Assembly (NCBI GenBank): GCA_017503735.1
Contig: JAFVSN010000038.1
Location: forward strand, 1 to 64,000
Length of the DNA: 64,000 bases
Direction: 5' to 3'
Source of the DNA: Lachnospiraceae bacterium
Lineage (GTDB): Bacteria > Bacillota > Clostridia > Lachnospirales > Lachnospiraceae
The notes beneath the pieces were generated by a model that saw nothing but the letters and a program-made list of their open reading frames with translations, was not told the DNA's origin and ran no database searches. A program made the position numbers and the translations under genes. Shown here piece after piece: positions 44,722-63,352 of the stretch. Each line of letters starts with the position of its first letter. The first letter of the stretch is position 1.

Positions 44722-44970
44722 ATGAATTATGATGAAAATCCAACCAAAGTCTACCGCATCGTAAAGTACTCCCTGTTTCTTTTTTCTATCGCCTTTTTCC
44801 TCTTTGCAGGCAGCAAACTTTTAAATGACACAATCCCCACAGCGGGTAAAACAAAGAAGCTTCCGATTTACTGCGTGGACACGGAGGAGAAGAAGGTGTC
44901 GCTTAGCTTTGACGCAGCCTGGGGGAATGGTAGATATGGAAAAGACAATTATACTGTTTTGATCTATTAA
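44722..44970 (+). pseudogene. PdaB-like polysaccharide deacetylase, 5' part of a split gene
   Basis: Codes for the N-terminus of a NodB-type deacetylase: a short cytoplasmic start, one membrane anchor (YSLFLFSIAFFLFAG), KLPIYCVDTEEKKVSLSFDAAWGN with the first metal Asp64, then 13 foreign residues and a stop. The break falls exactly at the 15-bp repeat CAGCCTGGGGGAATG (44915-44929), which recurs at 62619. Joining the two parts there gives an uninterrupted frame reading FDAAWGNEDTRNILSIL. PdaB proteins are needed for spore maintenance in B. subtilis, where the gene is sigma-E controlled. As it stands, this fragment cannot be active. Confidence 0.9.
44915..44929 (+). other. Left attachment site core (attL)
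   Basis: CAGCCTGGGGGAATG, identical to 62619-62633. The left flank continues the deacetylase gene and the right flank is element sequence. Confidence 0.85.
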
Positions 44971-44983
44971 TTTTCTTCCTCAA

Positions 44984-46030
44984 TTACAGCTGCAAACATC
45001 TAACAATGTCATTCATCGTACTTAATACTTCTTTTCTCAGCAACTCTTTCTTTTTTGGCATATTATATACTTTCTTTGACAACTCATCTATACTAATCAG
45101 CGTCTTATGAACACGCTTCTTTCGAATATAGATCTTTTTCTGCTCTATGTAGTTACGGTAATACCCCGTCTTTTCTGCATCCAAATATTTCCCCATTACA
45201 AATTTATCTTTGATATCTGTTTCTAAATAAATTGTATATATTTCTTCCAATTCATTCAGTACCGCTACAAAATACTTTTTTGTTAAGTCTGCATTTTTTC
45301 TTTCTCTTCTGTACTTTTTTAACTGTTTAAAAGAGTACCAAAGCAATATTGGCATGAATGCTACTGCATAATCCGAATCACTATAGAACGTCGCAATTAC
45401 AGTCGCCAACAAAAAAACATATTCACTTACCACATCCATCTCTGATTTATATTTATATCTTTCATAAAAGCGATAATCTCCTGTGATGAAAACACGCCTA
45501 ATGCCCGCTCGAAAAATAATCTCAAACACAATCGTTATCACATATACAACAAACAAATCCACCAGATTAGATGAAAACTGTAATGTTTGTACGACAAGAC
45601 ATATCGCAAAAATCACGTAATAAAGCACTTCCACTAAAAAGCATAGAAAATTTCTCCTTAGTACATACTCTTTCTTTATCAGCACAGAAACACAGTATCC
45701 AATTCCCGCCAAAACCAAAACAGGAAGAAGCCCAATAAGCATAATTGATAACGAACCAAAATAGATAAATTTCTTCGTTCGAATAAATTCAAATGCCTTT
45801 TCCTTTTTTCTATAAAAGTAAATGCAGAAATAATGTAACACTATCAGTAGCCCTGCAAACGCTACATAACAAAAGAACCATTTGGGAACAGTGCTATAAA
45901 TAATAGATAGCATTACAACTACCCCTAATACCACAAATCCCACCATTTTTTTCAAATCATTTTTATTTTCAACGCTTCCCTGCATTTTCTCTAGTTCTTT
46001 TATCTTTCTTTTAACTCGTTCCTTCATCAT
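44984..46030 (-). CDS. Multi-pass membrane protein, unknown
   Basis: 348 residues; I use the ATG at 46030 because AAAGGAGAAAA lies directly before it. A TTG further up would include the box. A Lys/Glu-rich N-terminus is followed by about seven hydrophobic helices (residues 30-225, in pairs such as MVGFVVLGVVVMLSIIYS and WFFCYVAFAGLLIVLHYF), then a charged cytoplasmic C-terminal third. No family recognised. First gene inside the left att site. It lies about 220 bases after the kinase gene on the same strand and may be the membrane effector of that module (inference). Confidence 0.65.
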   Translation of the reverse strand: MMKERVKRKIKELEKMQGSVENKNDLKKMVGFVVLGVVVMLSIIYSTVPKWFFCYVAFAGLLIVLHYFCIYFYRKKEKAFEFIRTKKFIYFGSLSIMLIGLLPVLVLAGIGYCVSVLIKKEYVLRRNFLCFLVEVLYYVIFAICLVVQTLQFSSNLVDLFVVYVITIVFEIIFRAGIRRVFITGDYRFYERYKYKSEMDVVSEYVFLLATVIATFYSDSDYAVAFMPILLWYSFKQLKKYRRERKNADLTKKYFVAVLNELEEIYTIYLETDIKDKFVMGKYLDAEKTGYYRNYIEQKKIYIRKKRVHKTLISIDELSKKVYNMPKKKELLRKEVLSTMNDIVRCLQL

Positions 46031-46247
46031 TTTTTCTCCTTTCAAAAGTAGTCATAAATGAACCTTTTCATCTCTCATGCCAGAAACCATAACCCACCTA
46101 GTATACTTTTTGCCACTATCAACGCACTTGCATCAGCAAAATATTCCTTCATTATAAATCACAGACACTAGCCGGACAGAAAATATTTCTAACATTTATC
46201 TCATTATCGTTCAGCATTCTATCAGATTTATCTTCATCCGTATTGTT

Positions 46248-47480
46248 CTAAATTGCAATTCCTTCACATTCTTCATCAATCACGGTAGCATCGAGCGAAC
46301 TAGCAATTTCCTTTTCCTGTTCATTTAATCTGGACAGATATACAGTCATCCTATTCTCGCCAATCTCTAACCTACGAATATGTAATGCGAATCTTTGAAC
46401 TATCTCAGGTCCCAGTTCTTGTGTAAAAAAATAAAAGTTAGTCCCTGCTTCTTTAACAGTTATTGGGCTCAAAACAACCTTCTCTCGCCATAGCACACTA
46501 TTAATTTCCAGCATAGGCTTCATCTCATGTAAAAAGGTCACTATCTTACTACTATCTTCGTAAGTTTTTGCGTCTTCTTTTACATTCGCTTTATAAAAGA
46601 GTAACCTTTCCATTCTTATATATTCTCGCTCTCTTTCACTAGGAAACTCACCTTTTAAAATAAAAAGCTCGTGCTTAATTAATTCTATACACTCAGCAAT
46701 TGAAATGCGCTTACTCCACTCTTGCTTTGTTGCCCCTTCCATCAATAAATGCAATGGTTCTAATGTCTTATCGCTGTACTGCTTTAAATTCAAATATATC
46801 TGTTTCTCACTTCTTGTATACTTCCCTTTAAACCCATACCTATCTTCCTTAAGATACATCCACATTACCTTTGCAAACAAATACACATCTGATTTAAAAT
46901 AATCACAGGCACATATTTCTTCTCTCTCTTCCAATTCAGGAGGCATAATCCAACTCGGACCTAATCTCTCATCAATTAACGTAAATGATTCTTCTCCTTC
47001 TATCCATATCAATCCATAATCTGCTAAATGAATTTTATCATTATATATCAGCAGATTATCTGGTTTGATATCTCTATGTGCCATCCCTCTTTTATGTAGC
47101 TCTCTTATGATCTCCGCTAATTCAAGCATTCTCTCCAATTTTTCCATCAAAGATAACTTGTCATGAACTATAAACTTATCGGCCTTAGGCATCGTATACC
47201 AAGCTGGCATCGTTTCAGTATACTCTACTGGGAAACCGTAGTCATATACCGGGAGCACACCTTTCATTTGACCAGCCAACTCTTTCTGTACACATATTTC
47301 CTTACAAAATCTCTGATATCGCCTATCTCGTTTATCATTATTGAATTTTTTGTCAGCAGAAAAAATTTTAACCACCGCTTTCTGTTTACTGTCCGGAAGC
47401 TGATATACTATTCCATTTCCTCCGCCACCAATCTTTTTCATCTTCGTAACCTCACACGGAGGAAGTCTATACTCCTGCAT
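46248..47480 (-). CDS. Serine/threonine protein kinase
   Basis: 410 residues from the ATG at 47480, which overlaps the upstream gene by 14 bases; in-frame ATGs at 47510, 47513 and 47540 are alternatives. Kinase marks: Gly-rich loop KIGGGGNGIVYQL (18-23), Lys38 in AVVKIF, catalytic AHRDIKPDNLLI near 135, and DYG in place of DFG in IHLADYGLIW. A YFKSDVYLFAKVMWMYL segment fits the F-helix. The last 150 residues are not kinase-like and may sense a signal. Cytoplasmic, no membrane anchor or PASTA domains, unlike housekeeping PrkC. Coupled to the 1240-residue gene. Confidence 0.88.
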   Translation of the reverse strand: MQEYRLPPCEVTKMKKIGGGGNGIVYQLPDSKQKAVVKIFSADKKFNNDKRDRRYQRFCKEICVQKELAGQMKGVLPVYDYGFPVEYTETMPAWYTMPKADKFIVHDKLSLMEKLERMLELAEIIRELHKRGMAHRDIKPDNLLIYNDKIHLADYGLIWIEGEESFTLIDERLGPSWIMPPELEEREEICACDYFKSDVYLFAKVMWMYLKEDRYGFKGKYTRSEKQIYLNLKQYSDKTLEPLHLLMEGATKQEWSKRISIAECIELIKHELFILKGEFPSEREREYIRMERLLFYKANVKEDAKTYEDSSKIVTFLHEMKPMLEINSVLWREKVVLSPITVKEAGTNFYFFTQELGPEIVQRFALHIRRLEIGENRMTVYLSRLNEQEKEIASSLDATVIDEECEGIAI

Positions 47481-50400
47481 ATTCTTCACACTCTCTTTCC
47501 GAATCTGCATCATATAGATACCGCTCGTATAGTCTGTCATATATGCCTGCCACTTTGGGATGTTTTACTCTTACTGCATCCGCATTCTTTTTATATCTAT
47601 TAGCCAGATTTCGTTCTTCAACCCCGCCTGTCGGACTGAAAACTCCTCGTTGGTTAAACACACTTACTACATATTCGCGCTCCAAGCTTTCATCACCATA
47701 CTTTTGTATTACATCACGTATCGTTTCATATGGTTTGTATCCATCCTCACCGACCGGTGAAAAAGAGAACAACCTCCCAAGAAGGTAAGTGAATAGTCTT
47801 CCCTGATTTTGTTGTTCCAACATGTTTTTAAACTCATCTACCCATTTCCATAAAGCCTCTGCTTCAACGATTCCTCCCGTCTGAGCAGGACAAAAATCCG
47901 CCTTGTTAAGCAAAGAATAAACACTGCTAATCACTTGTTCATTTATCGATTCATCTTCTAACACCTCTCCGTTATCCTTTTTATACACAATTGCAACCAT
48001 ATCAGCATAATATCGTGGTGAAAGTTCTAAGCAACGTTTAAAACACTTCATGTGTGCCCATTCCAACGGCCCGCGATATCGCAGTTCCAATTGCGCAACC
48101 CTCTTGCAATTTTCAGAATCCACAAATGCCTGCTGCATTTTCTCAAAGATATTTCTTAAACTATAAGATGATATCACTGAATCAGTTCCAGGATCAAGGA
48201 CATGTATCTTCTCCATAATTCCTAAAATTTCTTCCGGAGAGAAGTGCTTCATACACCTTTGTAGCGTGTCAATGAGCGTTATTTGATCAGAGTATTTACA
48301 CATCTCTTCCATCATAAAGCGACAAGTTTGGTTATCATCCACATAGTTTGGTCTGTGCCCAAGCCCCCAATATTTAAGCTTAATCTCTTCATCCTCCAAA
48401 CAAATAAGTGGTGTTTCATTTGCATCGAACGGTTCAATTAACAACAAATCAACCAGTATCTCATCATCTACACCTTGCTTTTTGGCGATCTCGACAGCAC
48501 GCTCAAGACATGCTCTATCCATCCAATATGCCATCCTCACATATAATTTCACAATCTCTTTGTAGTCTACACTACTAATGAGCAACTCAAATAAGCCAAC
48601 ATCAAAACACTTGTCGCAGTAAACCTCAAACAAGTACTTTCCAAGAGTTGAGTAGTTTTGTTTACTGCATAATGATATCAGCTCTCCAACATTTAACTTC
48701 TGTTCTTTAAAACGTAACATCCCTTCCCTTATTTCTTTCTCTTTTAATTGCTCATTAACCTCTCGTTTTTCATCCTCCGAATACGGGCATGGATGCAACA
48801 ACGGAAAATCAAAGTCATTCGTAAACAGATATTCATACTCATATACCGGATTCTCCGTCTTGATACGCCCCAATGAATCCTCAAAATATGACAATTCTTC
48901 CTCATCCATGGCCCATTCAGTACTACCAAAATACCTATGACGATATATCTCATGCCTAATTGCATTCTTTATAGATATGATTTCCGCATCTGTCATATAC
49001 TTTAATTCATAGTCCAGTTTTTCAAAAATCTCTGGTATAAATTTCTTTCCCAAATGATCTGCAATTTCTATCACTTTTACCCAACGATTTACATTAAATT
49101 CCATATGAGATAAACAAAGAGAAAAATACTCTCTATTTGCATCCCACATATCTCCCATTGTCACACTTATCGGTTCTCCGACTATTCTATATCTAGGCTT
49201 ACTTGGTCCCCCTATCATATTTTTGCTACGTCCAGGTAACTCATCATATATCAGTTCCCACACATCATAGTTACTATCAAAGGCCTCCTTTGCAAGATAC
49301 ACTTTCTCTTCCTGTGTTAACACCGTCACATTCAGCCACGTACAAAAAATGCGTTTCAACGTTTCTTCCGGACTATTACTGATTGCATACTTTATTCCCA
49401 AGTCATACATTTTTAGAAACCATCTGACAGCCCATGCCACATATTCCTTTTGTAAAAGGAATTGCTCCACACCCCAAATAAAGTGCGTATAATAATTCTT
49501 ACTAAATATGCCGTTGTCCTCTTGCCTTTTGAATACTCCTACTAAGCCGGTATCGTTACTCCACTCCTCATCCAATCTTCGACTAACGGCATTCGGAGAA
49601 GCTTCACATAAAACAGTAAAATACCCTGCAATTGAAAGCCACTGATTCTTTGACTTAATTTCAGATAATATCTTTTCCACTACACTATCAATTGCTCTCT
49701 GATTTTCTGCATCCTTCTTATAGTATGCTTTCATAACAAGACTACGAAGTAATCCTTTTTTCAATGTTGCGGACCAAAACGGCTTTGAATCCGGATAAAA
49801 TTCCGCATATAATTGCTTTTCTTCAGGATAATCAAATATCGGATCTGGCTCTGAAACAATATCTAAAACGCAATCCACATACTTTCTCCATCTCCTATCA
49901 CCAATCACAACTTGACTATCTAAATAGTCCCAGGCATTTTCCACACTGGCCAAATGATAAATCACTCGACCATGTACTTTAAATCTGATAAAAAGAGGGT
50001 CTTCTCCCTTCGTATACGGTCTTAACTCTTCTACAATCTGCTCATACTTTTTTCCACACAAATCTTCTAATACTGTTATATCTCCGTCTGTTTCAGTCCA
50101 CTGTCCACATAGAAGAAGTGGGATTATTAAGTCACTTTCTCCCGACAGCCAATTTGGAATAAGATTATATTGTCCTCGAATAATTTTCTTTTTAAGTGGA
50201 ATATACAACCCATGTGTGTCATCCACCATCGTATATGCCACATTACTGTCCATTCCTGCAGCTTCTAACTTACGCGCTATTGTACTACGCTTTCTTTTGC
50301 GCATAGTAATTGCATCCTTACCGACGCAATACTCTTCTTCACCGTATACAAAAATATTTGTATTGTTTGGAATTGCATATATTTGTTCCGCACCAAACCA

Positions 50401-51189
50401 CGGAATAAGAATCTTTCCTCCCATCTCCGGATTCTGCTCATTTGCAATTCTCAGGTTCTGCCATTCTTCTTCTTTCTTTACAACCAGCACCACTTTCCCC
50501 GTATCTATTCTACGTAATTCATTCAACAAACAATAGATTGTTTCTTCCTTGCACTGTCCCAAAACATAAATGCACTCATCACTCAAGCGCGATTCAAACA
50601 TTTCCCTGAAAATCTCGTCATCAATTTCAAAAAAATCCAAGTCAAGACTCGGCTCCGCTGTTTGCCTTACCAAATCCACTTCAATCTGATCTAATGAATA
50701 TATCTCAACCTTTTTATTTTGAATAACCCTTAACTGTTTACTCATATGAAGCAGCTCTTTTTTTATTTCAGCAAGAGTAGCTTCTTCCTTTTCTCTCCAT
50801 TCCCCTAAATATGCACATTGAAAAGCCTCTGGATTAACTTCCTCTAACTCATGCATAATAACCTTAATAAAATTTGCAATATAAAAATTCGCCTCAATTG
50901 CAGGAATTTCATATTGCAACATCAATCGCTTTAACTCAGCATATAGCTTATCTCTTAATGCATATTTGCTTCCCTCATCTACTCGCTCTGCCAACTCCTT
51001 CATGCTCTCACTTGACAAAAGCGCAGATATATCCTCTATAAGCAACTCTCCTTTTTCCACCTGCTTTAAAAAGAACTCTCCGGTATTAACAAATAACTGC
51101 TCCCACTGCTTTTTATTTTTATATTCATCAACTTTCTCTATCGCTTTACCTAGTACTAACTCTGCAACTTTCTCTCTAGCCTTTTCCAT
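47467..51189 (-). CDS. Very large (1240 residue) putative defence protein, partner of the kinase
   Basis: No signal or membrane segments. Residues 1-160 are helical. Residues 165-330 look like a compact alpha/beta fold (CIYVLGQCKEETIYCLLNEL, GKVVLVVKKEEEWQNL, TNIFVYGEEEYCVG). The rest is a long helical solenoid, and the C-terminus has GVFSPTGGVEERNLANRY and VAGIYDRLYERYLYDA. I have an impression of similar endings in giant STAND-type defence proteins but cannot confirm it; no Walker A is obvious. AGAGGAGGAT precedes the ATG. The stop overlaps the kinase start, so both proteins are probably made in a fixed ratio. Confidence 0.7.
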   Translation of the reverse strand: MEKAREKVAELVLGKAIEKVDEYKNKKQWEQLFVNTGEFFLKQVEKGELLIEDISALLSSESMKELAERVDEGSKYALRDKLYAELKRLMLQYEIPAIEANFYIANFIKVIMHELEEVNPEAFQCAYLGEWREKEEATLAEIKKELLHMSKQLRVIQNKKVEIYSLDQIEVDLVRQTAEPSLDLDFFEIDDEIFREMFESRLSDECIYVLGQCKEETIYCLLNELRRIDTGKVVLVVKKEEEWQNLRIANEQNPEMGGKILIPWFGAEQIYAIPNNTNIFVYGEEEYCVGKDAITMRKRKRSTIARKLEAAGMDSNVAYTMVDDTHGLYIPLKKKIIRGQYNLIPNWLSGESDLIIPLLLCGQWTETDGDITVLEDLCGKKYEQIVEELRPYTKGEDPLFIRFKVHGRVIYHLASVENAWDYLDSQVVIGDRRWRKYVDCVLDIVSEPDPIFDYPEEKQLYAEFYPDSKPFWSATLKKGLLRSLVMKAYYKKDAENQRAIDSVVEKILSEIKSKNQWLSIAGYFTVLCEASPNAVSRRLDEEWSNDTGLVGVFKRQEDNGIFSKNYYTHFIWGVEQFLLQKEYVAWAVRWFLKMYDLGIKYAISNSPEETLKRIFCTWLNVTVLTQEEKVYLAKEAFDSNYDVWELIYDELPGRSKNMIGGPSKPRYRIVGEPISVTMGDMWDANREYFSLCLSHMEFNVNRWVKVIEIADHLGKKFIPEIFEKLDYELKYMTDAEIISIKNAIRHEIYRHRYFGSTEWAMDEEELSYFEDSLGRIKTENPVYEYEYLFTNDFDFPLLHPCPYSEDEKREVNEQLKEKEIREGMLRFKEQKLNVGELISLCSKQNYSTLGKYLFEVYCDKCFDVGLFELLISSVDYKEIVKLYVRMAYWMDRACLERAVEIAKKQGVDDEILVDLLLIEPFDANETPLICLEDEEIKLKYWGLGHRPNYVDDNQTCRFMMEEMCKYSDQITLIDTLQRCMKHFSPEEILGIMEKIHVLDPGTDSVISSYSLRNIFEKMQQAFVDSENCKRVAQLELRYRGPLEWAHMKCFKRCLELSPRYYADMVAIVYKKDNGEVLEDESINEQVISSVYSLLNKADFCPAQTGGIVEAEALWKWVDEFKNMLEQQNQGRLFTYLLGRLFSFSPVGEDGYKPYETIRDVIQKYGDESLEREYVVSVFNQRGVFSPTGGVEERNLANRYKKNADAVRVKHPKVAGIYDRLYERYLYDADSERECEEYAGV

Positions 51190-51334
51190 TGCATATCCTC
51201 CTCTGATACAAAGTCGCTATCTAAGCCTTCTAATCCATTTTATCATAAGAATTTACAAATCACAATTATTTTGTCGCCCTTTAATTGTTCAAAAAAAGAA
51301 AGATGCATCTACGCTACATCTTTCCGTTCTCCTC

Positions 51335-52849: not shown

Positions 52850-52879
52850 CCTCTTTCCGTCCTCCTTTCTGGTATTTTA

Positions 52880-52908
52880 ATCAGGAAGCCCTTAAAGGGC
52901 TTCCTGAT
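52880..52908 (-). other. Perfect hairpin between the small ORF and the recombinase
   Basis: 12-bp stem ATCAGGAAGCCC/GGGCTTCCTGAT with a 5-base loop containing the stop codon of the 52-residue ORF. No T-run follows, and the recombinase ribosome-binding site begins about 12 bases on. It could control recombinase translation or mRNA stability. Confidence 0.6.
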
Positions 52909-53050
52909 ATAACACATTATTCTCGTCACTACTATGAACCTCGATAATTTTCTTCATAGCCTTCTTTGCATCCAGTTCATTCGTACTACTATACCGAACC
53001 GATACCGGCTTTTCTTTTACACGTTTTTCTACTTTATCTTTCTCGTCCAT
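52892..53050 (-). CDS. Small charged protein upstream of the recombinase (possible directionality factor)
   Basis: 52 residues with an excellent GAAGGAGGTAA box. It starts MDEKDKVEKRVKEKPVSVRY, contains ELDAKKAMKKIIEV and ends LYQEAL; basic N-terminal half, acidic C-terminal end, no Cys. It is encoded 42 bases ahead of the serine recombinase in the same orientation. Recombination directionality factors of this recombinase class are small proteins often encoded next to it, so this is a natural candidate, but sequence alone does not prove it. Confidence 0.65.
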   Translation of the reverse strand: MDEKDKVEKRVKEKPVSVRYSSTNELDAKKAMKKIIEVHSSDENNVLYQEAL

Positions 53051-53087
53051 ATAATTACTTACCTCCTTCGTAAAGATTCCTTACTAT

Positions 53088-53369: not shown

Positions 53370-53405
53370 CAGGCTGACTATTCTTTTTGTCTTTTGGAAT
53401 TAACC

Positions 53406-54065
53406 TTATTCATTTTTCAAATTCTCTAGATACCGGATTGCCTCATATACACTGGAAAATGTCTTGCACATTGTACATAACCACTGATTCCTCACATCAC
53501 TATCCTCTAATCCTGGAAGACCGTCCGGAAGAAGATTTTTCATTGTCTTCTCTGCATTTTTTACAGCCGTCGGATAATTCTGGGCAATTCTAAATGTAGC
53601 TTGTTGGTTTCCTTTTGAATATGTGGATTCTTTAGTAGTCACTTCAGCTATTACTCTTTCCTTTTCCGCCACAGTTTGTAACGGAGGTGCATACATCTTA
53701 TAGTGCAACATTAGCCAATATTCCATACATCCCGTAGTCATCAACAATCTAACCCTAATATTAGGATTTTTCCGTAGCTTTCTTAATCGGTTAATTATAA
53801 CAAGCCGATCATTCCATTTGCCGATATCCTTTGTTTCTACATCAAAGAAAAACCAAATTTCATCTGTTACTTCCGCACTATTTTTATATCTCACATTCTT
53901 CTTGAAAAGGTCATCCGCTTCATCAAATACTCCCGGTGCTTTTGGACGTTTTATCACAGCAACATCCTCAAATTGCTTTTTGAGAAAATCCGTGTAGGCC
54001 TGTTCACTTTCACCTTCACAAAAAACTTGAATAAGCGGCTTTGTTTTTTTGAGTTGACGAGACAT
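53406..54065 (-). CDS. rloB: RloB-family protein (Toprim-like)
   Basis: 219 residues. IQVFCEGESEQAYTDFLKK near 12 is the family start, carrying the Toprim-type Glu; DEIWFFFDVETKD near 68 supplies the acidic pair; CMEYWLMLHY near 112 is typical of RloB/OLD-like families. RloB was named as a restriction-linked ORF in Campylobacter and is paired with the ATPase RloA, as here. The start ATG overlaps the RloA stop by one base (TAATG), so translation is coupled. Probable nuclease half of an ATPase-nuclease phage-defence pair. Confidence 0.87.
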   Translation of the reverse strand: MSRQLKKTKPLIQVFCEGESEQAYTDFLKKQFEDVAVIKRPKAPGVFDEADDLFKKNVRYKNSAEVTDEIWFFFDVETKDIGKWNDRLVIINRLRKLRKNPNIRVRLLMTTGCMEYWLMLHYKMYAPPLQTVAEKERVIAEVTTKESTYSKGNQQATFRIAQNYPTAVKNAEKTMKNLLPDGLPGLEDSDVRNQWLCTMCKTFSSVYEAIRYLENLKNE

Positions 54066-55363
54066 TACTCCACCTCCTCAATCTCAATATCCGGTGTTGC
54101 ACCGTACTTGCCCAACAAATAACCCTTTCTGATATTTTCCGTTGTTTTTGTTGAAAACTCACTGATACTATAAAGTTCTGAGGAACCATCCTCACGATTT
54201 TTATCAGCAAAGTAGAACTGGTCCTTTCTCAGAAGTTCCAGATTCATAAGTTCTGTGTTGTGAGTTGTAAAAATAATCTGTGCACCGTTCTTATTGGTAG
54301 ATTTACTCTGGAATTTTGCTATAATAAAATCCACAAGCATCGGATGAAGTTCTCTTTCTATCTCATCAATTAATAAAACTCCACCTTTTCTTAAAGCCGA
54401 CTCAATCGCCGGCGCAATAGACATCAGTTTTCTTGTTCCATCAGACTCATCCATTAATTCCAATGGATACAATTCTATACTTCCTTCTTTATTGTAGCCT
54501 TGATGAAGAGCCGTCGCCTTTACTTGCCCCATTTTCAACTTTGCTTCGGAATTGTTGGAGGTTTCGGACAACGCATGTATAAACTGCGTCAGCGCTTCTT
54601 TTATCCCTTCCGGCATATCTTTCGGGAATTCTATTTCTTCGTCTATATCTTTACTGTCTATTTCAAATTGCATATCTTCAATACCAAAATCCGCAGCTTT
54701 TGCATAATCAGAAATAGCTTTTAGCATATTGGTATCATTTGAATAATCTAGTAATTGTTTCGGAATATCTGCATAATCTCTTGAAAAGAATATTTGTTCT
54801 CTAAACCATTTCATTGCATTCGTACATGCAATATCATTCATAGTACATGCAAGTGAGAAGAATAATTGATTCTCTGCTACTGTTTCACTGATTAACTTTC
54901 TCTTTGCCTTATCCTCAGTAAAGGAAAACTTCTGACCTTCTCTTGAAAAAACCAGTGCCTTTTGACCTTTTGGTGCATGATACAGAGATTCCTTTATAAC
55001 TTTTTCTCTTGTAGCTGCAAACATATACCAATATTTTATATCACCAATCGTATATATAAACTCAAACTCAGAAGGTTCATTCCTAGAAGTATCATTTAAA
55101 ATAAAAGGAACCACCGGAACATTCGCATTCTCATGCTGGGTTCTTTGTGCATTCTTTATAAACTGTACTGCAAGCCAGAAGGCTCTGATTACATTACTTT
55201 TTCCGCCACCGTTCTTGCCGTATATAGCAACACCCGGTAAAAGCTTCATAGCATTATATCCAATCAAACAATTTTTAAACGAACTCAAACCGGTCGCTTC
55301 CATCGAAAGCACCACTTCATCCCGAAAAGACCTATAATTCTTGAACTTAAATTCTATCAGCAT
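54065..55363 (-). CDS. rloA: RloA-like AAA-family ATPase
   Basis: 432 residues. IEFKFKNYRSFRDEVVLSM opening, Walker A YGKNGGGKSN (49-57), signature-like DGTRKLMSIAPAIESAL near 325, Walker B VLLIDEIERELHP and the His switch IFTTHNTELM. This is the SMC/ABC-like AAA_15/21 fold shared by RloA, PARIS AriA and OLD proteins. GGAGGTGG precedes the ATG, and a promoter is visible 20-50 bases upstream. The IS at 55479 has landed just behind that promoter without breaking it. Forms an operon with rloB. Confidence 0.87.
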   Translation of the reverse strand: MLIEFKFKNYRSFRDEVVLSMEATGLSSFKNCLIGYNAMKLLPGVAIYGKNGGGKSNVIRAFWLAVQFIKNAQRTQHENANVPVVPFILNDTSRNEPSEFEFIYTIGDIKYWYMFAATREKVIKESLYHAPKGQKALVFSREGQKFSFTEDKAKRKLISETVAENQLFFSLACTMNDIACTNAMKWFREQIFFSRDYADIPKQLLDYSNDTNMLKAISDYAKAADFGIEDMQFEIDSKDIDEEIEFPKDMPEGIKEALTQFIHALSETSNNSEAKLKMGQVKATALHQGYNKEGSIELYPLELMDESDGTRKLMSIAPAIESALRKGGVLLIDEIERELHPMLVDFIIAKFQSKSTNKNGAQIIFTTHNTELMNLELLRKDQFYFADKNREDGSSELYSISEFSTKTTENIRKGYLLGKYGATPDIEIEEVE

Positions 55364-55381
55364 AATTCCACCTCCAATTAT

Positions 55382-55410
55382 AGTATATCCACTTATTTCA
55401 ATAAATGCAA
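55382..55410 (-). promoter_or_regulatory. Promoter of rloAB
   Basis: TTGCAT (55410-55405), 17-base spacer, TATACT (55387-55382) on the minus strand, outside the IS. Confidence 0.65.
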
Positions 55411-55730
55411 CTGTTTTTATTCGTTTTTTTGATTTTTTTGTTTCAATTTAGCAAAAATCACGTTAAAGCATCAAAAAACGGGTGATCAAAGTTTTTGAGG
55501 GGCTGACTCTTTGAGGGTTCTTCGTGATGGTTTGTTATGAGGGGCTTTCGTGAGGGGCTGGTTTGAGGGTTATTTATGAGGGTTTACAAAAAAAACAAAA
55601 CATTTAACAGAAAACCAGGGTTGTCAAATCGACTTCCCTGGTTTCCTTTTTTGAAGGATACTGCTTGTCCTTCCATCCTCTTTTTCCTATGATAGGTTTG
55701 CAAGCTAAAAACAGAAAAAGGAGGATACAT

Positions 55731-57140
55731 ATGAATAGTATCACAGAATTGCTAAACCTTGAATACTCTGATATCTTTATTTCTGATATTTCCATTCAAG
55801 GTACAACCAAACCTCTCACACTTGAAACCACTCCTTATGCACACTATTGCCCCTCGTGCGGTTTCAGAATGCATTCCAAAGGAGTCAAAAATCGTAAAGT
55901 CAAACATCCTGTTTTACAGGATAATTATGAACTCATCCTGATTCTTAAACAACGGCGTTGGAAATGCACAAATCCCGAATGCAACTATGATATCAGTGAT
56001 ACCTTTAAGTTTGTCAACAAACGCAGACGTACCACCAATGCCACAGATATGCTTATTGTTCTCGCTTATCGCGACCTCATGGAAACAGCAGTTTCCATTG
56101 CTAACCGTTTTCACATCTCCGATACTCATGCTCATGAGGTCTTTGACCGCTATGTAAAAATGGATAGATTGCCTCTAACGGATGCCATCTGCATCGACGA
56201 AGTATTCTTAGATATGGATGAACACTGTAAATACGCATTGGTCATTCAGGACTTTCATACCGGCGATCCGATTGACCTGCTTCGCAGTCGCCGTTCTAAT
56301 GTAACCGAACCGTACTTCGCTTCCCTTCCTGTTGCAGAAAGAACCGCTGTCAAATACCTTATCTCAGACATGTATAACCCCTACATCTCCTACGTTGATA
56401 AATACTTCCCCAACGCCGTTTCCGTCGTAGATTCTTTTCATGTGATCCAATGGCTCATCCGGATGATTGATAACTATATCCGGCAGCTTTTGAAAAAGTT
56501 TCGTCAGCGTGACAGGGAAGAGGAAGAGAAACTTTCCTACGAGGCCCAACACCCGGTTTCTCTTCCTCCATCCAGAGAGGTTTATCTTCTTCAGAAATAC
56601 CGTTGGTTGATTCTGGCCAATCAATCAAACATAAAATACCACTCCGAACCAAGAATGGATTCCCACTTCCGATGTTTAATGAATACCTATGATTATGAAG
56701 ATGCACTGTTTCGTATTGACCCCAAACTCAAAGATTTCCGGGATTTAAAAGAAACATATATTCAGTTCAACTCACGCAATGCTGGTAAGCCATTGGAAGC
56801 CCGTCGAGAACTGGACGAACTGATTCCTATGTATCAGCGCTCTGAATACGAGATTTTCAGAGACTTCGGGAGTCTTCTTGAAAACTACAAAGATTACATA
56901 ATCAATTCCTTTGTTATGGTGGAAAAACACGGACCCGGAAAGGTCTACGAAAGCAGACTTTCTAATGGTCCCATTGAATCCATCAATCGAAAAGTGAAGG
57001 ATTTAAAACGCTCCGGCAGAGGCTACCGAAACTTTGAGCACTTTCGTAACCGCTTCTTATATTCCGCAAGACAATCACCTGTACTGAACGGCGTAACTGA
57101 CTATACACCTGTTTTATACCTTGAAGACGATGACAACTAA
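55731..57140 (+). CDS. ISL3-family transposase
   Basis: 469 residues from the ATG at 55731, which has AAAGGAGG eight bases upstream; the longer frame starts inside the leader. N-terminal zinc finger (YCPSCGFRMHSKG near 40 and CTNPECNYDISDTF near 78), a helix-turn-helix region near 105-130, then a DDE domain (ICIDEVFLDMDEH near 155, AVKYLISDMYNPYIS near 215, SVVDSFHVIQWL, and the late Glu in SNGPIESINRKVKDLKR near 425). Appears intact, so the IS may be active. Confidence 0.92.
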   Translation: MNSITELLNLEYSDIFISDISIQGTTKPLTLETTPYAHYCPSCGFRMHSKGVKNRKVKHPVLQDNYELILILKQRRWKCTNPECNYDISDTFKFVNKRRRTTNATDMLIVLAYRDLMETAVSIANRFHISDTHAHEVFDRYVKMDRLPLTDAICIDEVFLDMDEHCKYALVIQDFHTGDPIDLLRSRRSNVTEPYFASLPVAERTAVKYLISDMYNPYISYVDKYFPNAVSVVDSFHVIQWLIRMIDNYIRQLLKKFRQRDREEEEKLSYEAQHPVSLPPSREVYLLQKYRWLILANQSNIKYHSEPRMDSHFRCLMNTYDYEDALFRIDPKLKDFRDLKETYIQFNSRNAGKPLEARRELDELIPMYQRSEYEIFRDFGSLLENYKDYIINSFVMVEKHGPGKVYESRLSNGPIESINRKVKDLKRSGRGYRNFEHFRNRFLYSARQSPVLNGVTDYTPVLYLEDDDN

Positions 57141-57165
57141 TCACATTCCCAAAGGAGGATTACAC

Positions 57166-57369
57166 ATGGATAATTACTGTGCTTTTAGCAAAAATCATAA
57201 ATGTATGAAATGGACGGATTATGAACTTACAAGACATGAACTCGAAGAAGCCGACACCCTATGTCACGGAAACTGGATTGAAATCCAGCACCTTCGCAGA
57301 AAAATCGAAATCTTAGAAACCTTACTTAAGAATGCCGGTATTGATATCCCGGTTGAATTTTACAATTAA
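57166..57369 (+). CDS. Small passenger protein of the IS
   Basis: 67 residues; the ATG at 57166 has AAAGGAGGAT seven bases upstream, 26 bases after the transposase stop. NYCAFSKNHKCMKWTDYE start with two Cys, then a helix with heptad spacing (IQHLRRKIEILETLLKNA) that could be a coiled coil. No family recognised. Its position and box suggest it is made with the transposase and may modulate it. Confidence 0.65.
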   Translation: MDNYCAFSKNHKCMKWTDYELTRHELEEADTLCHGNWIEIQHLRRKIEILETLLKNAGIDIPVEFYN

Positions 57370-57625
57370 AAATACCCATTCAATAAGGGCTGACGCAAAC
57401 AAACGTCAGCCCCTCATAAAAGACCCTCATAGCAGCCCCTCACGAAGCCCCCTCATTAACGCATGGTCAAAATCGGGCAAACCCTCATGAAAGACCCTCA
57501 CAAAGTTTGGCAAACCCTCAAAAACTTTGATGACCCGACTTTTCAACTGTTTTCATTCATTTAAATGTCTAAACTTATTCCATTTCTTCCAGAACAAAAA
57601 GTATTAAGCAAACGAAGCCTCGTAC

Positions 57626-59122
57626 TTATCCTTTTCTTTTTAAATATTCTTTCACATTGAAATCATAATTCCAACTTAATTTTCTTTGATTAGCCCTTTG
57701 ATCAATTTTCTTACACAACTCTATGAACGCTTTATCCATACGTTCTTCATCTCCAAGTGCAAAAAACTCTTGATTCTGCATGCGCTGTTCCTCCGAGCAT
57801 TCGTTCTCATATTCCTCTTTAATAACATCCTCACACGAGAAATCCTCTACTTCCTGTGAAAGAAAATCATCCTCCAACCATTCCGGATTATCAAAGTCTG
57901 GCTCATAATCGTAGTCTTCTTCCTCCCCGCAATATGACATATATCCATCCTCGCCAAAATCCGGATTATACATATCCACCTCCTGATATGATGATTCATA
58001 CCCTTCCAATGCAGCCTCATACCTACGTTGTTCCGCTTCCCTAATTCGTTTTTCGGTCGCTCTATCCCATTCCTCATACATATTATCCAAAAATTCCTGA
58101 TGCTCTCTTTCAGCAATAATTATCTGTTCTTCAATACTCTTTTCATCACGGTGTCCCGGTAAAATAGAATCAAACGCTTTTTCTCTATTATAATACCGAA
58201 GAAGTTCTACATACAGAATGTAATCATAGTATGTGTACAATTCGTTACACCTCTGCATATAATATTGATAGTCCTCTTCGTACATCGCAATTTTTTCCCC
58301 TGAGTTATAACGAGTTGTAAACCATTGGCAAGCTAATACCACATCAACACGCCTACTACAACCTTCCAAAAACATCTTACTGCACTCTTCCAAATCCATA
58401 TTAATCATCTTTATTTCCTTAGCAAGCAAGACACCAAAAATCACATCCATCGTAAAATGATATTTGAAATACATTTTCAATACATCTTTATCTCTCAGAT
58501 AGTCTTCTATACCACTGTCTCTCGCTCTCTCATCGCGTTCGCCTTCTATAAACTTCCAGACATAGTTGTAGATATACTCGTATACTTCCTTTAAATCTAT
58601 TCCATGAGCTCTATGTAATTCTAATGCCAACTTGCATTCTCTCTCGTTTAATCTGTAATATCCTGTCAATCTAGCGACTTCTAATGCAAATCTGTCATTT
58701 TCAGAAACATAGTCCCAATTTGCAACCGGTAATAACAAAGAAACGTCTTTCCGTACCGCCGCCACTTCCGGCGAAACAATAAAATACGATTTAAACTTTT
58801 CAATAAATCCTGCCTGCGTTGACAACCCTGAAATCTGTATTGCCTTGCTATATCCCCTCCCCATTTCACCTTTCAAAATACATTTGTATGCTGCCATCAT
58901 CTTTCTTTCATCAATATACTCATTCACCCTTTTCTCCAACAGAAACTGAAATAATGCATTCTTCTCTCGCTTTTCGCTTAAATAACAATGCGCCGCGGCA
59001 AAGGCCTTTTCACAAATATCCTGCTTGTCATAATAGGTTATGTAACCTTCTTGGTCTTCTACTCCATTCACCAAACGCTCAATTTCATTAACAATCAAAT
59101 CAAACTTCTCTTTAGGATTCAT
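57626..59122 (-). CDS. Large acidic protein with AraC-like HTH, unknown
   Basis: 498 residues. Residues 90-125 (KAIQISGLSTQAGFIEKFKS then YFIVSPEVAAVRKD) have the spacing of the second helix-turn-helix of AraC regulators. The middle (150-330) is helical. Residues 340-400 form a Glu/Arg coiled coil, and 400-450 is extremely rich in Asp, Glu and Tyr (EEEDYDYEPDFDNPEWLEDD), possibly a DNA mimic or disordered tail. Its ATG overlaps the upstream stop by four bases (ATGA). Role unknown; regulator or antitoxin are options. Confidence 0.65.
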   Translation of the reverse strand: MNPKEKFDLIVNEIERLVNGVEDQEGYITYYDKQDICEKAFAAAHCYLSEKREKNALFQFLLEKRVNEYIDERKMMAAYKCILKGEMGRGYSKAIQISGLSTQAGFIEKFKSYFIVSPEVAAVRKDVSLLLPVANWDYVSENDRFALEVARLTGYYRLNERECKLALELHRAHGIDLKEVYEYIYNYVWKFIEGERDERARDSGIEDYLRDKDVLKMYFKYHFTMDVIFGVLLAKEIKMINMDLEECSKMFLEGCSRRVDVVLACQWFTTRYNSGEKIAMYEEDYQYYMQRCNELYTYYDYILYVELLRYYNREKAFDSILPGHRDEKSIEEQIIIAEREHQEFLDNMYEEWDRATEKRIREAEQRRYEAALEGYESSYQEVDMYNPDFGEDGYMSYCGEEEDYDYEPDFDNPEWLEDDFLSQEVEDFSCEDVIKEEYENECSEEQRMQNQEFFALGDEERMDKAFIELCKKIDQRANQRKLSWNYDFNVKEYLKRKG

Positions 59123-59490
59123 ACTGCCTCAGCCTCCTTGTCGTAATCTCTATCACACAAATCCATGCATAAATCATTAGGGTAACACTTTGCATATCTC
59201 TTATTATTTCTGATAACTTCTTTTCCACAATACTTTGCTTTCTTTCCGAACCATGCTGGTGCCAAAAACATTGTAATACATGCATGCTCCATATTAAAGA
59301 TAAAGCAATATCCGGCATAATATTTTGCATAACTTCCATCTCTGGACCTTTCAAGCAAATATCTTCTCTCTCTTGCCGGAAAATCCACTGCGCTCTTTCC
59401 TCTTACTTTCGCGTTTTGAATCATCCTTACCGCCGAATCAACATTCAGACCGGCTCTTTCTTGCGTTCTAAGAATACTATGGTACGTCAT
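59119..59490 (-). CDS. Small basic protein, possible RelE/DUF4258-like toxin
   Basis: 123 residues. The pattern ILRTQERAGLNVDSAVRMIQ, a run of basic residues (PARERRYLLERSRDG) and YYAGYCFIFNMEHACITMFLAP resembles RelE-superfamily DUF4258/BrnT toxins. Those have a helix with H/R..QER, then strands around a substrate pocket. A short Cys-containing tail follows (CYPNDLCMDLCDRD). It is translationally coupled to the 498-residue acidic gene, which would be an unusually large antitoxin. Tentative. Confidence 0.55.
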   Translation of the reverse strand: MTYHSILRTQERAGLNVDSAVRMIQNAKVRGKSAVDFPARERRYLLERSRDGSYAKYYAGYCFIFNMEHACITMFLAPAWFGKKAKYCGKEVIRNNKRYAKCYPNDLCMDLCDRDYDKEAEAV

Positions 59491-59607
59491 TTGTTATCCT
59501 CCTTTGCTGTTTGTGATTATATTTTAGCAACAAAGGTTAGATTTGTATTTTGGTTTTTTGTACAAAAAAAGAAAACTGCTTGTTTTTGTCTATCTCACAT
59601 GTATAGC

Positions 59608-60510
59608 CTAGTATCTTAACGGAATCTTTGATTTACCAACTTTGACATTCAATCCCTTACTCTCACAAAACATTTCCATTCCTTTACGTGCAATATCTAT
59701 ATTACTTTTGGGTCCTATACAAACCGACCGCAAGCTTTTCAAAATTCCTTCTGGAACTTTAATAAACGGAATCAATGTATCCCTTTTAGCTCGGAAGAAT
59801 ATCTCCCCTTCCTCCTTAAGTGTTTTTCTTCCTTTTAACACCCCCGAAAAAACAAATCGATATTCCTCTTCCAATGAAAACTCAGGCTTTTTAAAAAACA
59901 TCCCATATAGTATGCAAATCATCATCGCAGACTCTACCATTGCATCTAGCATCTTGTTCGAAATATTAGCAAGCGTTGCATTTAAAAACTGTTCATATGG
60001 GTACTCATATATCCCTTCTGCGACTTTAATCCAACTCTTTCTCAATGCTTCTTCTTGTTGCTTTCCGTCATAGATTACTTTTCCGTTCCATGAAAGGCCT
60101 CCCCCTATACACTCCTTTAATGTACCGTAATCAAATCCCATACAGTACCCGGCTTCATTAGAAAACTCTGACCATAACGCTAAATTGTCTTTGTTCAATG
60201 AAAACGATAGAACATAATAGCCGCTTCTATTCTTCTCCGTCAGGTCTGCTTCTATCTCTTTTTTTAGTCGGTCCCTTATTTGAGTTTGCAAACTCTTATC
60301 ATGGATTTCCGAAAGAATTTTGCTTACAAACACTTTATGTGCATACTTGAACTCTTCTTGGTCATTTAAAAAATCATGTCGTGTTGCCCAAAATTCATCC
60401 TTCTCTATCATATTCTGTACCGCACTTACAGTCGTATAATGATATAACTTTTGTCCGCTTCCCAACATTTCGACAAAAATGAATTCATCCATATAATTTC
60501 TTTTTTTCAT
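59608..60510 (-). CDS. DUF2971-domain protein
   Basis: 300 residues from the ATG at 60510 (AAAGGAGA eight bases upstream). DUF2971 marks: LYHYTTVSAVQNMIEKDEFWATR near 20, FLNDQEEFKYA near 46, YYVLSFSLNKDNLALWSEFS near 102, and GYCMGFDY near 123. A late EEYRFVF near 225 is also typical. Such proteins recur in prophages and defence islands without a proven activity. Lies about 90 bases downstream of the reverse transcriptase gene and probably shares its transcript. Confidence 0.82.
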   Translation of the reverse strand: MKKRNYMDEFIFVEMLGSGQKLYHYTTVSAVQNMIEKDEFWATRHDFLNDQEEFKYAHKVFVSKILSEIHDKSLQTQIRDRLKKEIEADLTEKNRSGYYVLSFSLNKDNLALWSEFSNEAGYCMGFDYGTLKECIGGGLSWNGKVIYDGKQQEEALRKSWIKVAEGIYEYPYEQFLNATLANISNKMLDAMVESAMMICILYGMFFKKPEFSLEEEYRFVFSGVLKGRKTLKEEGEIFFRAKRDTLIPFIKVPEGILKSLRSVCIGPKSNIDIARKGMEMFCESKGLNVKVGKSKIPLRY

Positions 60511-60603
60511 GACAAAATCTCCTTTCATCCGTCTATTCCCCTTTCTCTTGATCCGTCATTATCTAGAACCTATCACATTACAATCATTTCAATACCGCCA
60601 TCT

Positions 60604-62433
60604 TTATATTAACCACGACAAATCGTCCAGATCATCCTCAACCACCGTCTCACCCTTCTTATCTGGTACACCTAAAACCTGCTCCTCTATATTAGCGCTT
60701 CTACCCGTATAAAATGCCTTCATATTCTTGTAAAACAAATGAAAATGATTACTATTATAAAACTCCGAATAATTCTTTTCATCTTTCAAATATATAATAA
60801 ATAATGGGAACCACCATTTAGAAAGCATTATACTACGCTTCCAATAATCCTTTTCCCCATCCTTCTTCTCTATAGCAGAATACTTTCCTTTTATACATTT
60901 AAAAATCTCTTCATTTTTTCCTTTTCCTGTTTTTACAAAACTTGCCAAAATTATCGGATTAATTTCTCGTTCTTTAAATGAAATAATCAGCTCCTCAATC
61001 TCGGCTTCTTCCTCATACTGACTCAAAACATAGTAATGCCATATTTGCATTACAGAATCATGGTATGTAGTGTCAATATAATCGCTCTTAGATCTAAGCT
61101 CCTTCAAAAGTTCCCCATATATCTCTTCTCCCCTACTCTGTTCAAAAATTTCCATAATCACTTTATAACAACGAGAAGAAAATACCGGTTCTACACAAGA
61201 AAGCTGTAAAAGATACGATACAACATATTTTTTAAACTGAATCTGTTCCTCCAAGAAAATAATTTTACCTTTGTTTATCGCTGTCTTTAATAATGTCAAA
61301 AATGTTTTAATCTCCGACTTTTTATCATTATCATATGCTACAGAAATATAACCTTTAATATTATAAAACACATCCTTATCTAACACAGTTATTCCATCTT
61401 CATCAAAGCAAAAAAACGAGAAACGCTTTTTTAATTCATACATATCCACATATGACATATTATATATATTTTTACATGCTTCTGTTTTATTATTATTTAT
61501 TCTAAGCCTATACTTATTTAATACCATTTGAACTTTCGGAAGAATAGAATAAATTTTTTCTAACGAATCAGAAAAAAAAGTCATATCATCAACATATCTA
61601 ATATATTCAACATCTTGACCTATTTCCTTCTCTATTTCAAAATCCACACATAACATTAGCAATTCCGCAGATATAGCTGACGAAAAAACTCCCGCTGCTA
61701 TTCCCTTAGTCTGATTATTATTTGTTTTCATATTGTAGCTATCAAGGAAATCAAAAAACTCATCACACTGTAACTTACTATGTGGTTCAAAACGCTTTAT
61801 CTTACTTAAATAATGCGTATATACATTCGGATAAAATGACTCTATGTCAACTTTTACAGAATAAATTCTTGAACCCTGCTTTTTTAAATATCTAAGATTA
61901 TTTTCTTCATGAGCCAATTGTCCTGTCGTTTTACTGTTCTTTACAGCAAAAAATCCTCTTTCAATTATCTCCTCATCCCCTGTATAATCCCGATGAACAT
62001 GAAATGTTTCATTGAATAATATGTAAGAGTTCGAACTAGCTATATAGTCCTTCAGACTTAAATCTGTATATAATCTCACAAATAGTTTCTCATAAACTAC
62101 CATTGTGTTGTAAATAAAGGAACAATAGTACTTTAAATTGGGCACCTGCATTTCTCGCAATGCTCCATTTTTCTTAAAATCAAAAAAAGTAATTGGCTCA
62201 ATTCCATCACCATAAATATACTCTGGCGAAACAACATTTAAATATTCTTTTATTATACCACTTGTATCCATTTTAAATTCTGTATACTTTCGCCCTTCAA
62301 TATCCTTCATTGCTTTTTTGATAAAAGGTTTTATTTTTTCAATATCTATTATAGGCGGTAAATCTTCATACCAATACCCTTCAGCTAACAATTCAATATT
62401 CCTCTGCTGTACCTCATTTTTTTCATCAAACAT
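60604..62433 (-). CDS. Reverse transcriptase of unknown-group (UG/DRT-like) type
   Basis: 609 residues. RT motif A VKVDIESFYPNVYTH (Asp196), motif B-like QTKGIAAGVFSSAISAELL (244), motif C YIRYVDDMTFFS (YVDD 280-283), motif D LRINNNKTEACKN. About 180 unrelated N-terminal residues and a 280-residue helical tail. No maturase, endonuclease or intron structure, so it is not a group II intron enzyme. The fused extra domains and defence setting fit the UG/DRT class. GAGAGGTGAG precedes the ATG. Its stop is followed by the DUF2971 gene. I cannot assign a DRT subtype. Confidence 0.83.
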   Translation of the reverse strand: MFDEKNEVQQRNIELLAEGYWYEDLPPIIDIEKIKPFIKKAMKDIEGRKYTEFKMDTSGIIKEYLNVVSPEYIYGDGIEPITFFDFKKNGALREMQVPNLKYYCSFIYNTMVVYEKLFVRLYTDLSLKDYIASSNSYILFNETFHVHRDYTGDEEIIERGFFAVKNSKTTGQLAHEENNLRYLKKQGSRIYSVKVDIESFYPNVYTHYLSKIKRFEPHSKLQCDEFFDFLDSYNMKTNNNQTKGIAAGVFSSAISAELLMLCVDFEIEKEIGQDVEYIRYVDDMTFFSDSLEKIYSILPKVQMVLNKYRLRINNNKTEACKNIYNMSYVDMYELKKRFSFFCFDEDGITVLDKDVFYNIKGYISVAYDNDKKSEIKTFLTLLKTAINKGKIIFLEEQIQFKKYVVSYLLQLSCVEPVFSSRCYKVIMEIFEQSRGEEIYGELLKELRSKSDYIDTTYHDSVMQIWHYYVLSQYEEEAEIEELIISFKEREINPIILASFVKTGKGKNEEIFKCIKGKYSAIEKKDGEKDYWKRSIMLSKWWFPLFIIYLKDEKNYSEFYNSNHFHLFYKNMKAFYTGRSANIEEQVLGVPDKKGETVVEDDLDDLSWLI

Positions 62434-62481
62434 TTTATCTCACCTCTCGTCAAAATTAACCCCACTACTTATACTCATTTC

Positions 62482-62510
62482 ATTATAACATAATTTTTAT
62501 TGTTTTGTAT
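62482..62510 (-). promoter_or_regulatory. Promoter of the reverse transcriptase operon
   Basis: The minus strand has TATAAT (62487-62482) preceded by an extended TG at the right spacing. The -35 (TACAAA) is weak. About 50 bases before the RT start. Confidence 0.55.
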
Positions 62511-62618
62511 TACCTGATTAAAAAAACTAAACCAATTACCTCTTTCACTATACCCATTAGCATCTTTTTCCCGATTCATTGAAAGTCCCGCCTATTTCCG
62601 CCATTCCATATCTCCCCT

Positions 62619-62633
62619 CAGCCTGGGGGAATG
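62619..62633 (+). other. Right attachment site core (attR)
   Basis: CAGCCTGGGGGAATG, identical to attL. The right flank continues the deacetylase gene. Confidence 0.85.
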
Positions 62634-63352
62634 AAGACACCCGCAACATTCTCTCCATCCTAAAAAAGCACAACGTAAAAGTAACCTTCTTCATGACCGG
62701 GGAATGGATGAATAAATATCCGGATGACGTAAAGGCAATTTTAGCCGACGGTCACGATCTGGGCAATCACAGTGAGAACCACAAGCAGATGTCACAGCTT
62801 TCCGCAGAGCAATGCCGCACGGAAATTCAAAAAGCCCATGACCGTATTAAGGAACTGACCGGTGTGGAAATGAATTTGTTCCGTCCGCCGTATGGAGATT
62901 ATAACAATACTCTTGTGGAAGTATGTAAGGACATGGGATATCACTGCGTGCAGTGGGACATTGATTCTCTGGACTGGAAAGACTACGGTACCGATGCCAT
63001 TATTAAGAAGGTGCTGGAGCATAAGCATCTGGGCAACGGTTCCATCATCCTCATGCACAACGGAGCAAAGTATACGCCGGCGGCATTGGAAGCAATTATT
63101 CTGGGCTTAAAGGAAAAGGGATATGAGCTGGTGCCGATTTCGGAGCTCATACATAAAGAAAATTATGAGATGGATCATGAAGGGAGACAACATGTGAAGG
63201 AAGATTCCGACAATCGCAAAAGCTCTGACACCACCGGTACACCGCACCCACAACAAACTACCGAATCCCCTGTGTCTACTCCGGACACAACTCCGGACAT
63301 TGCTTCAAAAACAGCGAAAAAAGGAACGCCTATGCCGCATCACGCGGCATAG
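62619..63352 (+). pseudogene. PdaB-like polysaccharide deacetylase, 3' part of a split gene
   Basis: Carries the catalytic NodB core: motif 2 HDLGNHSENH, motif 3 LFRPPYGDYNN, motif 4 WDIDSLDWKD and motif 5 IILMHNG, followed by a Thr/Pro/Ser-rich tail. The frame is open a short way left of the att core (a TTG at 62579), but no proper start or binding site is there; the real start is at 44722. The joined protein would have about 310 residues. Its last codons lie inside the hairpin at 63325-63357. It would be expressed only after excision of the element. Confidence 0.9.

Follow-up and report, generated by a model that had tools for sequence, protein, structure and literature searches.

The window analyzed here is a 64,000-nucleotide stretch of a Lachnospiraceae genome (assembly GCA_017503735.1, contig JAFVSN010000038.1, positions 1 to 64,000), in which a pdaB-type polysaccharide deacetylase gene lies in two parts on either side of an element that carries a large serine recombinase. 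The following features define the locus:

44666..44693, + strand: sigma-E-type promoter of pdaB, -35 GAATATC, 13 bp, -10 CATATATT (score 14.0, p 0.007 versus shuffles)
44722..44929, + strand: 5' part of pdaB, from the membrane anchor to FDAAWGN
44915..44929, + strand: attL core (15-mer), with the TG crossover dinucleotide inferred at 44920-44921
44932..44941, + strand: attP arm AGATATGGAA at the left element end, the inverse of 62604-62613 and near-identical at the related loci L087 and L109
51335..52849, - strand: large serine recombinase, 504 aa, with Resolvase, Recombinase and Zn ribbon domains in order (PHROG 95 integrase, 9.6e-100)
52892..53050, - strand: 52-aa open reading frame (ORF) just upstream of the recombinase, the site of a candidate directionality factor
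62604..62613, + strand: attP arm TTCCATATCT at the right element end
62619..62633, + strand: attR core (15-mer)
62619..63352, + strand: 3' part of pdaB, NodB catalytic domain, stop-free

The initial annotation had described one NodB deacetylase gene in two halves, separated by 17.7 kb and each bearing the same 15-mer at its break, and these coordinates were confirmed. The 15-mer CAGCCTGGGGGAATG was present exactly at 44915-44929 and 62619-62633, with no further exact copies in the window, and the starts of the two cores were 17,704 bp apart. When up to 3 mismatches were allowed, 3 matches were found in the window (1.23 expected), a number reached by 13 of 100 shuffles; the weight of the repeat therefore comes from its location inside both pdaB halves. 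Joining of the halves at a single copy resulted in KKVSLSFDAAWGNEDTRNIL, exactly and in frame as had been claimed. By comparison of sequences we show that the site-specific split of pdaB falls on the TG within the FDAAWGN Trp codon.

The split pdaB was the only copy found in its own genome (G000; 94.6% complete, 58 contigs). A second intact copy, which the initial annotation had regarded as telling against its proposal, was rejected as only distant paralogues were found, the best of them by E-value having 32-33% identity. Relatives without the joined sequence had been regarded in the same way, and same-genus relatives do carry it. A through-reading copy was present in eight of the nine other genomes of the genus (G002, G003, G004, G005, G006, G007, G008 and G009), and G001 had a distant paralogue only and no through-reading pdaB. 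The G004 copy reads past the break and is then cut at residue 146 by the contig end; the stops flagged in two through-reading rows are natural protein ends (residues 303 and 296). On either side, the window locus was colinear with that of G005, which is uninterrupted. Compared to G005, extra DNA was also present at 44138-44687 (∼550 bp, upstream of pdaB) and at 63352-64965 (1.6 kb, downstream and partly past the window on the same contig). From this comparison, the region around pdaB resembles a general hot spot for insertions.

The identity of the host gene was investigated with the uninterrupted congener protein at locus L010. The PdaB equivalog model TIGR02764 clearly outscored every other model, and the score of 228.8 bits was below the curated cut-off of 237.4. 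The gene is therefore named PdaB-type, and not PdaB proper, and at that level the host gene assigned by the initial annotation was correct. The sigma-E-type promoter was located 48 to 58 bases upstream of the pdaB start, with p ≤0.04 in all nine scored copies; the scoring used a sigma-E consensus and left out G008 (locus L013). According to excerpts of earlier work on Bacillus subtilis, ybaN/pdaB is listed as a sigma-E gene (PMC3416734, PMC4703394), SpoIIID binds DNA upstream of pdaB (PMC517825), and pdaB (spoVIE) appears in a table of a screen for sporulation-defective mutants (PMC4703394). By homology and promoter, pdaB is probably a mother-cell (sigma-E) gene. The carrier hosts look like sporulators, judging from a SpoIVA match in 36 of 37 genomes examined (34 above cut-off) and from Spo0A, which was present in all ten genomes of the window's genus.

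Recombinase, ends and cargo of the element

The element had been predicted to encode a large serine recombinase, and one was found inside it, with all three domains. It is situated 6.4 kb inside the left end, which is unusual for the group, many relatives adjoining one end. Its nearest relatives in a collection of named genomes were found at L087 (55%) and L109 (49%), where both adjoin the 5' half of a split pdaB, and the ends at these loci are TTAGATATGGAC and GTATATATGGAC, compared to GTAGATATGGAA in the window. Since both of these kin are located at split pdaB genes and adjoin almost identical ends, the window recombinase very probably made the ends of its element, i.e. is cognate to them. 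The proposal that it is unrelated to the ends, given its mid-element location, was rejected, since the ends track its nearest kin. The best NCBIfam match of the recombinase was XisF (NF041201), the fdxN-element recombinase of cyanobacteria, at 117 bits and thus far below the 375-bit cut-off; that system concerns another organism and another gene.

On a tree of recombinases labelled by locus, the pdaB-associated members clustered (8 changes versus 23.4 when shuffled), with the second recombinase of L089, which lies past the 3' half, counted as pdaB-associated. A conserved small ORF, a candidate directionality factor, precedes the recombinase in 20 of 26 pdaB-associated rows versus 23 of 115 other rows. 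Recombinases of the same large clade were also observed at L077-L083, L099 and L102, where the flanks that were fetched contained no part of pdaB, and some of these recombinases are mutually close in distant hosts (Thomasclavelia and an Erysipelotrichaceae record).

When the inner ends of the element were brought together they formed TTCCATATCT...CAGCC TG GGGGAATG...AGATATGGAA, a dyad centered on the TG of the FDAAWGN Trp codon. The attP sites of large serine recombinases have such a dyad architecture. The window dyad had 16 of 25 pairs in one scoring and 16 of 24 in another, and none of 200 shuffles was as good. A search for the attL pattern in 200 genomes of the family matched the window alone, because the end sequence is group-specific. 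In viral_contigs there was no exact attP match, and a single-protein query confirmed no relative of the recombinase there.

The remaining genes of the element are:

44984..46045, - strand: 353-aa protein, no family match
46248..47540, - strand: protein kinase, PD-T4-6-like (PF00069 1.3e-15; PADLOC 1.2e-17)
47467..51189, - strand: 1240-aa protein (phrog_18693, 1.8e-41)
53406..54065, - strand: RloB/AbiLii-like protein (PADLOC AbiLii 2.3e-17)
54065..55363, - strand: AbiLi-like AAA ATPase (PADLOC AbiLi 6.7e-90)
55665..57140, + strand: ISL3-family transposase of an insertion sequence within the defense island (PF01610 2.4e-44)
57626..59122, - strand: 498-aa protein, no family match
59119..59490, - strand: 123-aa protein (phrog_16724)
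59608..60528, - strand: DUF2971 protein, PDC-S31-like defense candidate (PADLOC PDC-S31 4.9e-9)
60604..62433, - strand: defense reverse transcriptase RT_UG31 (PADLOC 2.4e-110)

Several known defense families were thus matched by PADLOC in the element (RT_UG31, AbiLi, AbiLii, PDC-S31 and PD-T4-6). The RT_UG31 gene, the AbiLi/AbiLii-like pair, the DUF2971 protein and the kinase support, as likely, the phage-defense cargo that had been claimed at first sight, and the element is likely a defense island carrying predicted anti-phage genes. No phage structural or packaging genes were found by Pfam on the main element ORFs or by PHROGs on 10 ORFs, a comparison that left out the RloB, AAA, ISL3 and RT genes, and a prophage identity was rejected on this basis. 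The 'skin-like' label of the initial annotation holds for the mechanism, but with no phage structural gene found, the element is nearer to gin (in gerE) than to skin.

Interrupted pdaB genes in other genomes

The joined PdaB protein was searched against 299 genomes of the family (298 genera), of which 115 matched at 1e-45. A search with the recombinase covered 200 family genomes, 37 of them with a match. The genomes of the named collection (G319-G332) may overlap with other G-numbered genomes. Nine PdaB matches started at residues 60-66, i.e. at the break, and recombinase homologues were present beside many of them. An interrupted pdaB was found in 16 of the 299 genomes (G000, G025, G035, G038, G066, G091, G116, G132, G169, G178, G200, G233, G259, G270, G272 and G281), which may be an undercount as G091, G200 and G270 were below the 1e-45 threshold. 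The joined-PdaB search alone gave 13 of 115 genomes. Among the best 80 relatives of the recombinase from the named collection, 14 loci also showed pieces of pdaB, some of them in records titled Oscillospiraceae, Butyricicoccus and Ruminococcus. Of the single case first described, the split thus stands and the singularity does not: the same gene is split in other genera and by other recombinase groups. By these matches, the element belongs to a pdaB-intervening group that is widespread in Lachnospiraceae and some relatives.

The gene was interrupted at four positions. Position 1 (FDAAWG) is split in G000, G025, G035, G038, G091, G116, G178, G233 and G272, and as far as readable in G066, where the 3' half lies beside a recombinase and the 5' half is off the contig. 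At all 15 position-1 loci that were readable on both sides, the join was FDAAWGNE in frame and the best attP dyad was centered on the same TG; in 12 of them the dyad had p ≤0.03 versus letter shuffles, the exceptions being G025 (0.21), G091 (0.39) and G330 (0.08). Position 2 (RPP/YG) is split in G091 and G328 by a third recombinase group, and a fourth group splits pdaB near residue 90 in G281. Position 3 (WDVD/SLDW) is split by a second recombinase group in G035, G169, G259, G327, G332 and G270, and in G200 as judged by the 3' piece. The position-3 recombinase was searched against 299 family genomes, with a match in 21, and all five matches with at least 48% identity (G270, G132, G259, G200 and G035) were in or adjoining pdaB pieces. 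G132 showed no clean junction at position 3 and is counted as a recombinase-plus-pieces locus only. Position-3 loci were observed at L181 7022-10063 (G259), L120 25-3851, L187 3543-9392, L228 9104-12438 and L229 6036-6275.

Identity among the four recombinase groups was 19-30%, and within groups 40-56%. Simultaneous interruption at two positions was found in G035, G332 and G091. At L106 ('Lachnospiraceae bacterium isolate B85_10_CF_BP') the split positions are 1 and 3. In G091, the gene was observed in three pieces over ∼51 kb, at positions 1 and 2 (L076 3745-16635, L190 14861-15172). The cargo varied: G116 carries two MATE-like transporters, G035 an AbiEi/AbiEii-like pair, and the G038 element a recombinase and little else. 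The position-1 insert of G233 measures 1.47 kb, with one large ORF and group-type end arms (L074 9565-11672), and is probably a non-autonomous member. Cargo names for G116, G035, G038 and G233 were read off translations, without family search.

Putatively rescued loci and the state of the split genes

In G007 and G003, element ends of the window type at the same break flank an internal through-reading pdaB (L024 2760-7990 and L025 8429-13377, respectively). These ends comprise GGTAGATATGG in G007, GGTAGATAAG in G003 and CCATATCTCCCC in both; the cargo differs from that of the window, and neither locus showed a match to the window recombinase. The internal pdaB of G007 is a chimera that switches between residue 40 and the att core. 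Between the start codon and residue 40 or so, its similarity is 87-93% to the pdaB of the window and 57-73% to the broken 5' half of G007 itself; from the core on, its similarity to the 3' half of G007 is 95-100% for ∼180 bases, and then 72-87%. The 60 bases upstream of its start are nearest to G002 (88%, versus 64% for the window). The location of the switch makes it likely that recombination at or near the core produced the chimera. The spare 3' half of G007 has acquired a stop. The locus may reflect an insertion that became stranded and was subsequently repaired, as would fit a gene that matters.

Among the pieces listed, the presumed host-gene part of the split pdaB genes contained no stops. 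The stop-flagged rows concern L110, at the core Trp codon, where the 3' side supplies the Trp codon, and L071, L107 and L185, on the element side of the break. In the genus of G116, the other 11 matching genomes have open frames of at least 284 aa and look uninterrupted; G038 is the sole genome of its genus.

Proposed excision in the mother cell and alternative explanations

We favor, with moderate confidence, a mobile defense island in pdaB that is cut out by its own recombinase, with pdaB restored in the mother cell. A non-phage island mobilized by a serine recombinase would insert site-specifically into the Trp codon of FDAAWGN, at its TG, and the element recombinase together with a directionality factor would excise it and rejoin FDAA-WGNED exactly, as suggested by the cognate ends and the 15 like loci. 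The insertion would be silent in growth, since PdaB is presumably needed solely in sporulation. We infer that excision occurs during sporulation, and pdaB would then become whole in the mother cell, the chromosome of which is lost, with the forespore inheriting the element. More tentatively, and with somewhat more doubt than confidence, pdaB as a whole may be a repeatedly colonized 'split gene', with four positions (three of them catalytic motifs) used by at least four recombinase groups, mother-cell DNA splicing, a permanent but dispensable landing site for anti-phage genes and other cargo, the probably non-autonomous insert of G233, and rescued loci including the G007 chimera.

Several observations weigh against the favored explanation. 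The 52-aa ORF of the window fails the small-ORF profile, and no directionality factor was identified; the G233 insert has no recombinase match. A scan of 15 elements (110 kb) for sigma-E promoters found 9 versus 7.0 expected, i.e. no excess, and in the window's element no such promoter reached the threshold, where shuffles give 1.2. Of the ten genomes of the genus, G000 is the only one with a split pdaB and no copy that reads through. In another genus with a split gene, the frame is long and open in a congener whose 3' half is 99% identical, so that insertions can be recent. The dN/dS values of the split pdaB were 0.014-0.019 for the 3' half (versus G002, G005 and G003), near the 0.007-0.014 of uninterrupted pairs, and 0.021-0.065 for the 5' half (0.026-0.086 for uninterrupted pairs); a recent insertion accounts for this no less than a functional gene would, and dS is near saturation. 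An uninterrupted PdaB-type copy was present in 7 of 30 genomes examined (G003, G007, G259, G272, G320, G324 and G331); that none was found in the other 23 counts for the favored explanation, but as many genomes are drafts or metagenome-assembled genomes, missing copies are weak evidence.

On the promoter question, the C. difficile skin element is informative: according to excerpts of the published account, its recombinase is sigma-A-driven and its directionality factor sigma-E-driven (PMC5025042). As it is the directionality factor, not the recombinase, that is under sigma-E there, the missing piece here would be that factor. One plausible sigma-E site was observed before the recombinase operon of G025.

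Plain insertional inactivation is the alternative that survives best, and we regard it as unlikely. A conserved coding target would be hit, a dead pdaB would be tolerated in the gut, and carrier lineages would be short-lived. Congeners that read through the break fit this account, as do the absence of a sigma-E promoter excess and the target itself, which encodes invariant catalytic motifs and would be a good conserved attB; the element ends kept beside a re-formed intact pdaB in G003 and G007 look as if the break were costly. However, interruption of pdaB (13 of 115 genomes, 16 of 299 overall) contrasts with the control SpoIVA, which is twice as long, was matched in 194 of 299 genomes and had two matches in only 4 of these (G106, G114, G213 and G280), where the double matches may be splits or contig breaks and not all rows were listed. 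No SpoIVA gene was found beside a recombinase among the loci fetched. Also against inactivation are the double interruptions with open pieces in G035, G332 and G091, and the stop-free presumed host-gene pieces, whereas the spare 3' half of G007 has a stop.

A stochastic switch, with low-frequency excision and reinsertion in all cells, a phase-variable pdaB and spores arising from the excised fraction, appears improbable. In its favor, no developmental promoter was seen in the elements; a near-identical congener lacks the element; and for yin in Clostridium botulinum both forms are described from one pure culture (PMC10747680). Against it stands the sigma-E dependence of the directionality factor in C. 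difficile skin, in the excerpt cited above (PMC5025042). That the locus is an assembly chimera, or that the recombinase does not belong to the ends, is very improbable: the draft genome has 58 contigs and the recombinase sits mid-element, but the split locus lies on a single 164 kb contig, the same build is present in 14 other genomes, and the ends follow the nearest kin of the recombinase.

Excision of an island from pdaB would have several precedents, which are described here from excerpts of the respective papers. Sporulation genes known to be split by such elements are sigK (PMC5025042), spsM, spoVFB and spoVR (PMC4191935), gerE (PMC5595907) and yabG (PMC10747680). The closest is gin in gerE of Bacillus cereus ATCC 10987, likewise a non-phage island in a sporulation gene with a serine recombinase, a short direct repeat and in-frame rejoining. 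It differs in its host gene, its three recombinases and its demonstrated rearrangement (PMC5595907), whereas that of pdaB is predicted from sequence; the pdaB elements, in turn, carry defense cargo in the window and affect many genera in one gene. The skin element in sigK of C. difficile (PMC5025042) and SP-beta in spsM (PMC4191935) share the sporulation gene, the serine recombinase and the exact rejoining, but are prophages or prophage-like, with a known directionality factor and sporulation control. The yin element in yabG of C. botulinum V73 also bears a recombinase (compared with SpoIVCA) and lies in a conserved sporulation gene; it is prophage-like, has another host gene and is described from one strain only (PMC10747680). 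Likewise, vfbin in spoVFB and vrin in spoVR are intervening elements in mother-cell genes, with phage-related genes, in Bacilli and in other host genes (PMC4191935).

In the open literature, with subscription papers mostly beyond reach, we found no report of a pdaB or polysaccharide deacetylase gene, or of a Lachnospiraceae sporulation gene, split in this way. New aspects are pdaB as host gene, the four positions, the four recombinase groups, the predicted defense cargo and the putative rescued and non-autonomous members. If excision from pdaB takes place as proposed, the few host genes known to be reassembled through DNA excision during sporulation would gain another member, and the phenomenon would extend to common gut commensals, which are transmitted by spores. 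One gene colonized by several recombinase groups would allow regulators, tolerated parasites and safe defense docks to be told apart, with the pdaB loci, including the double interruptions and the rescued loci, serving as natural replicates.

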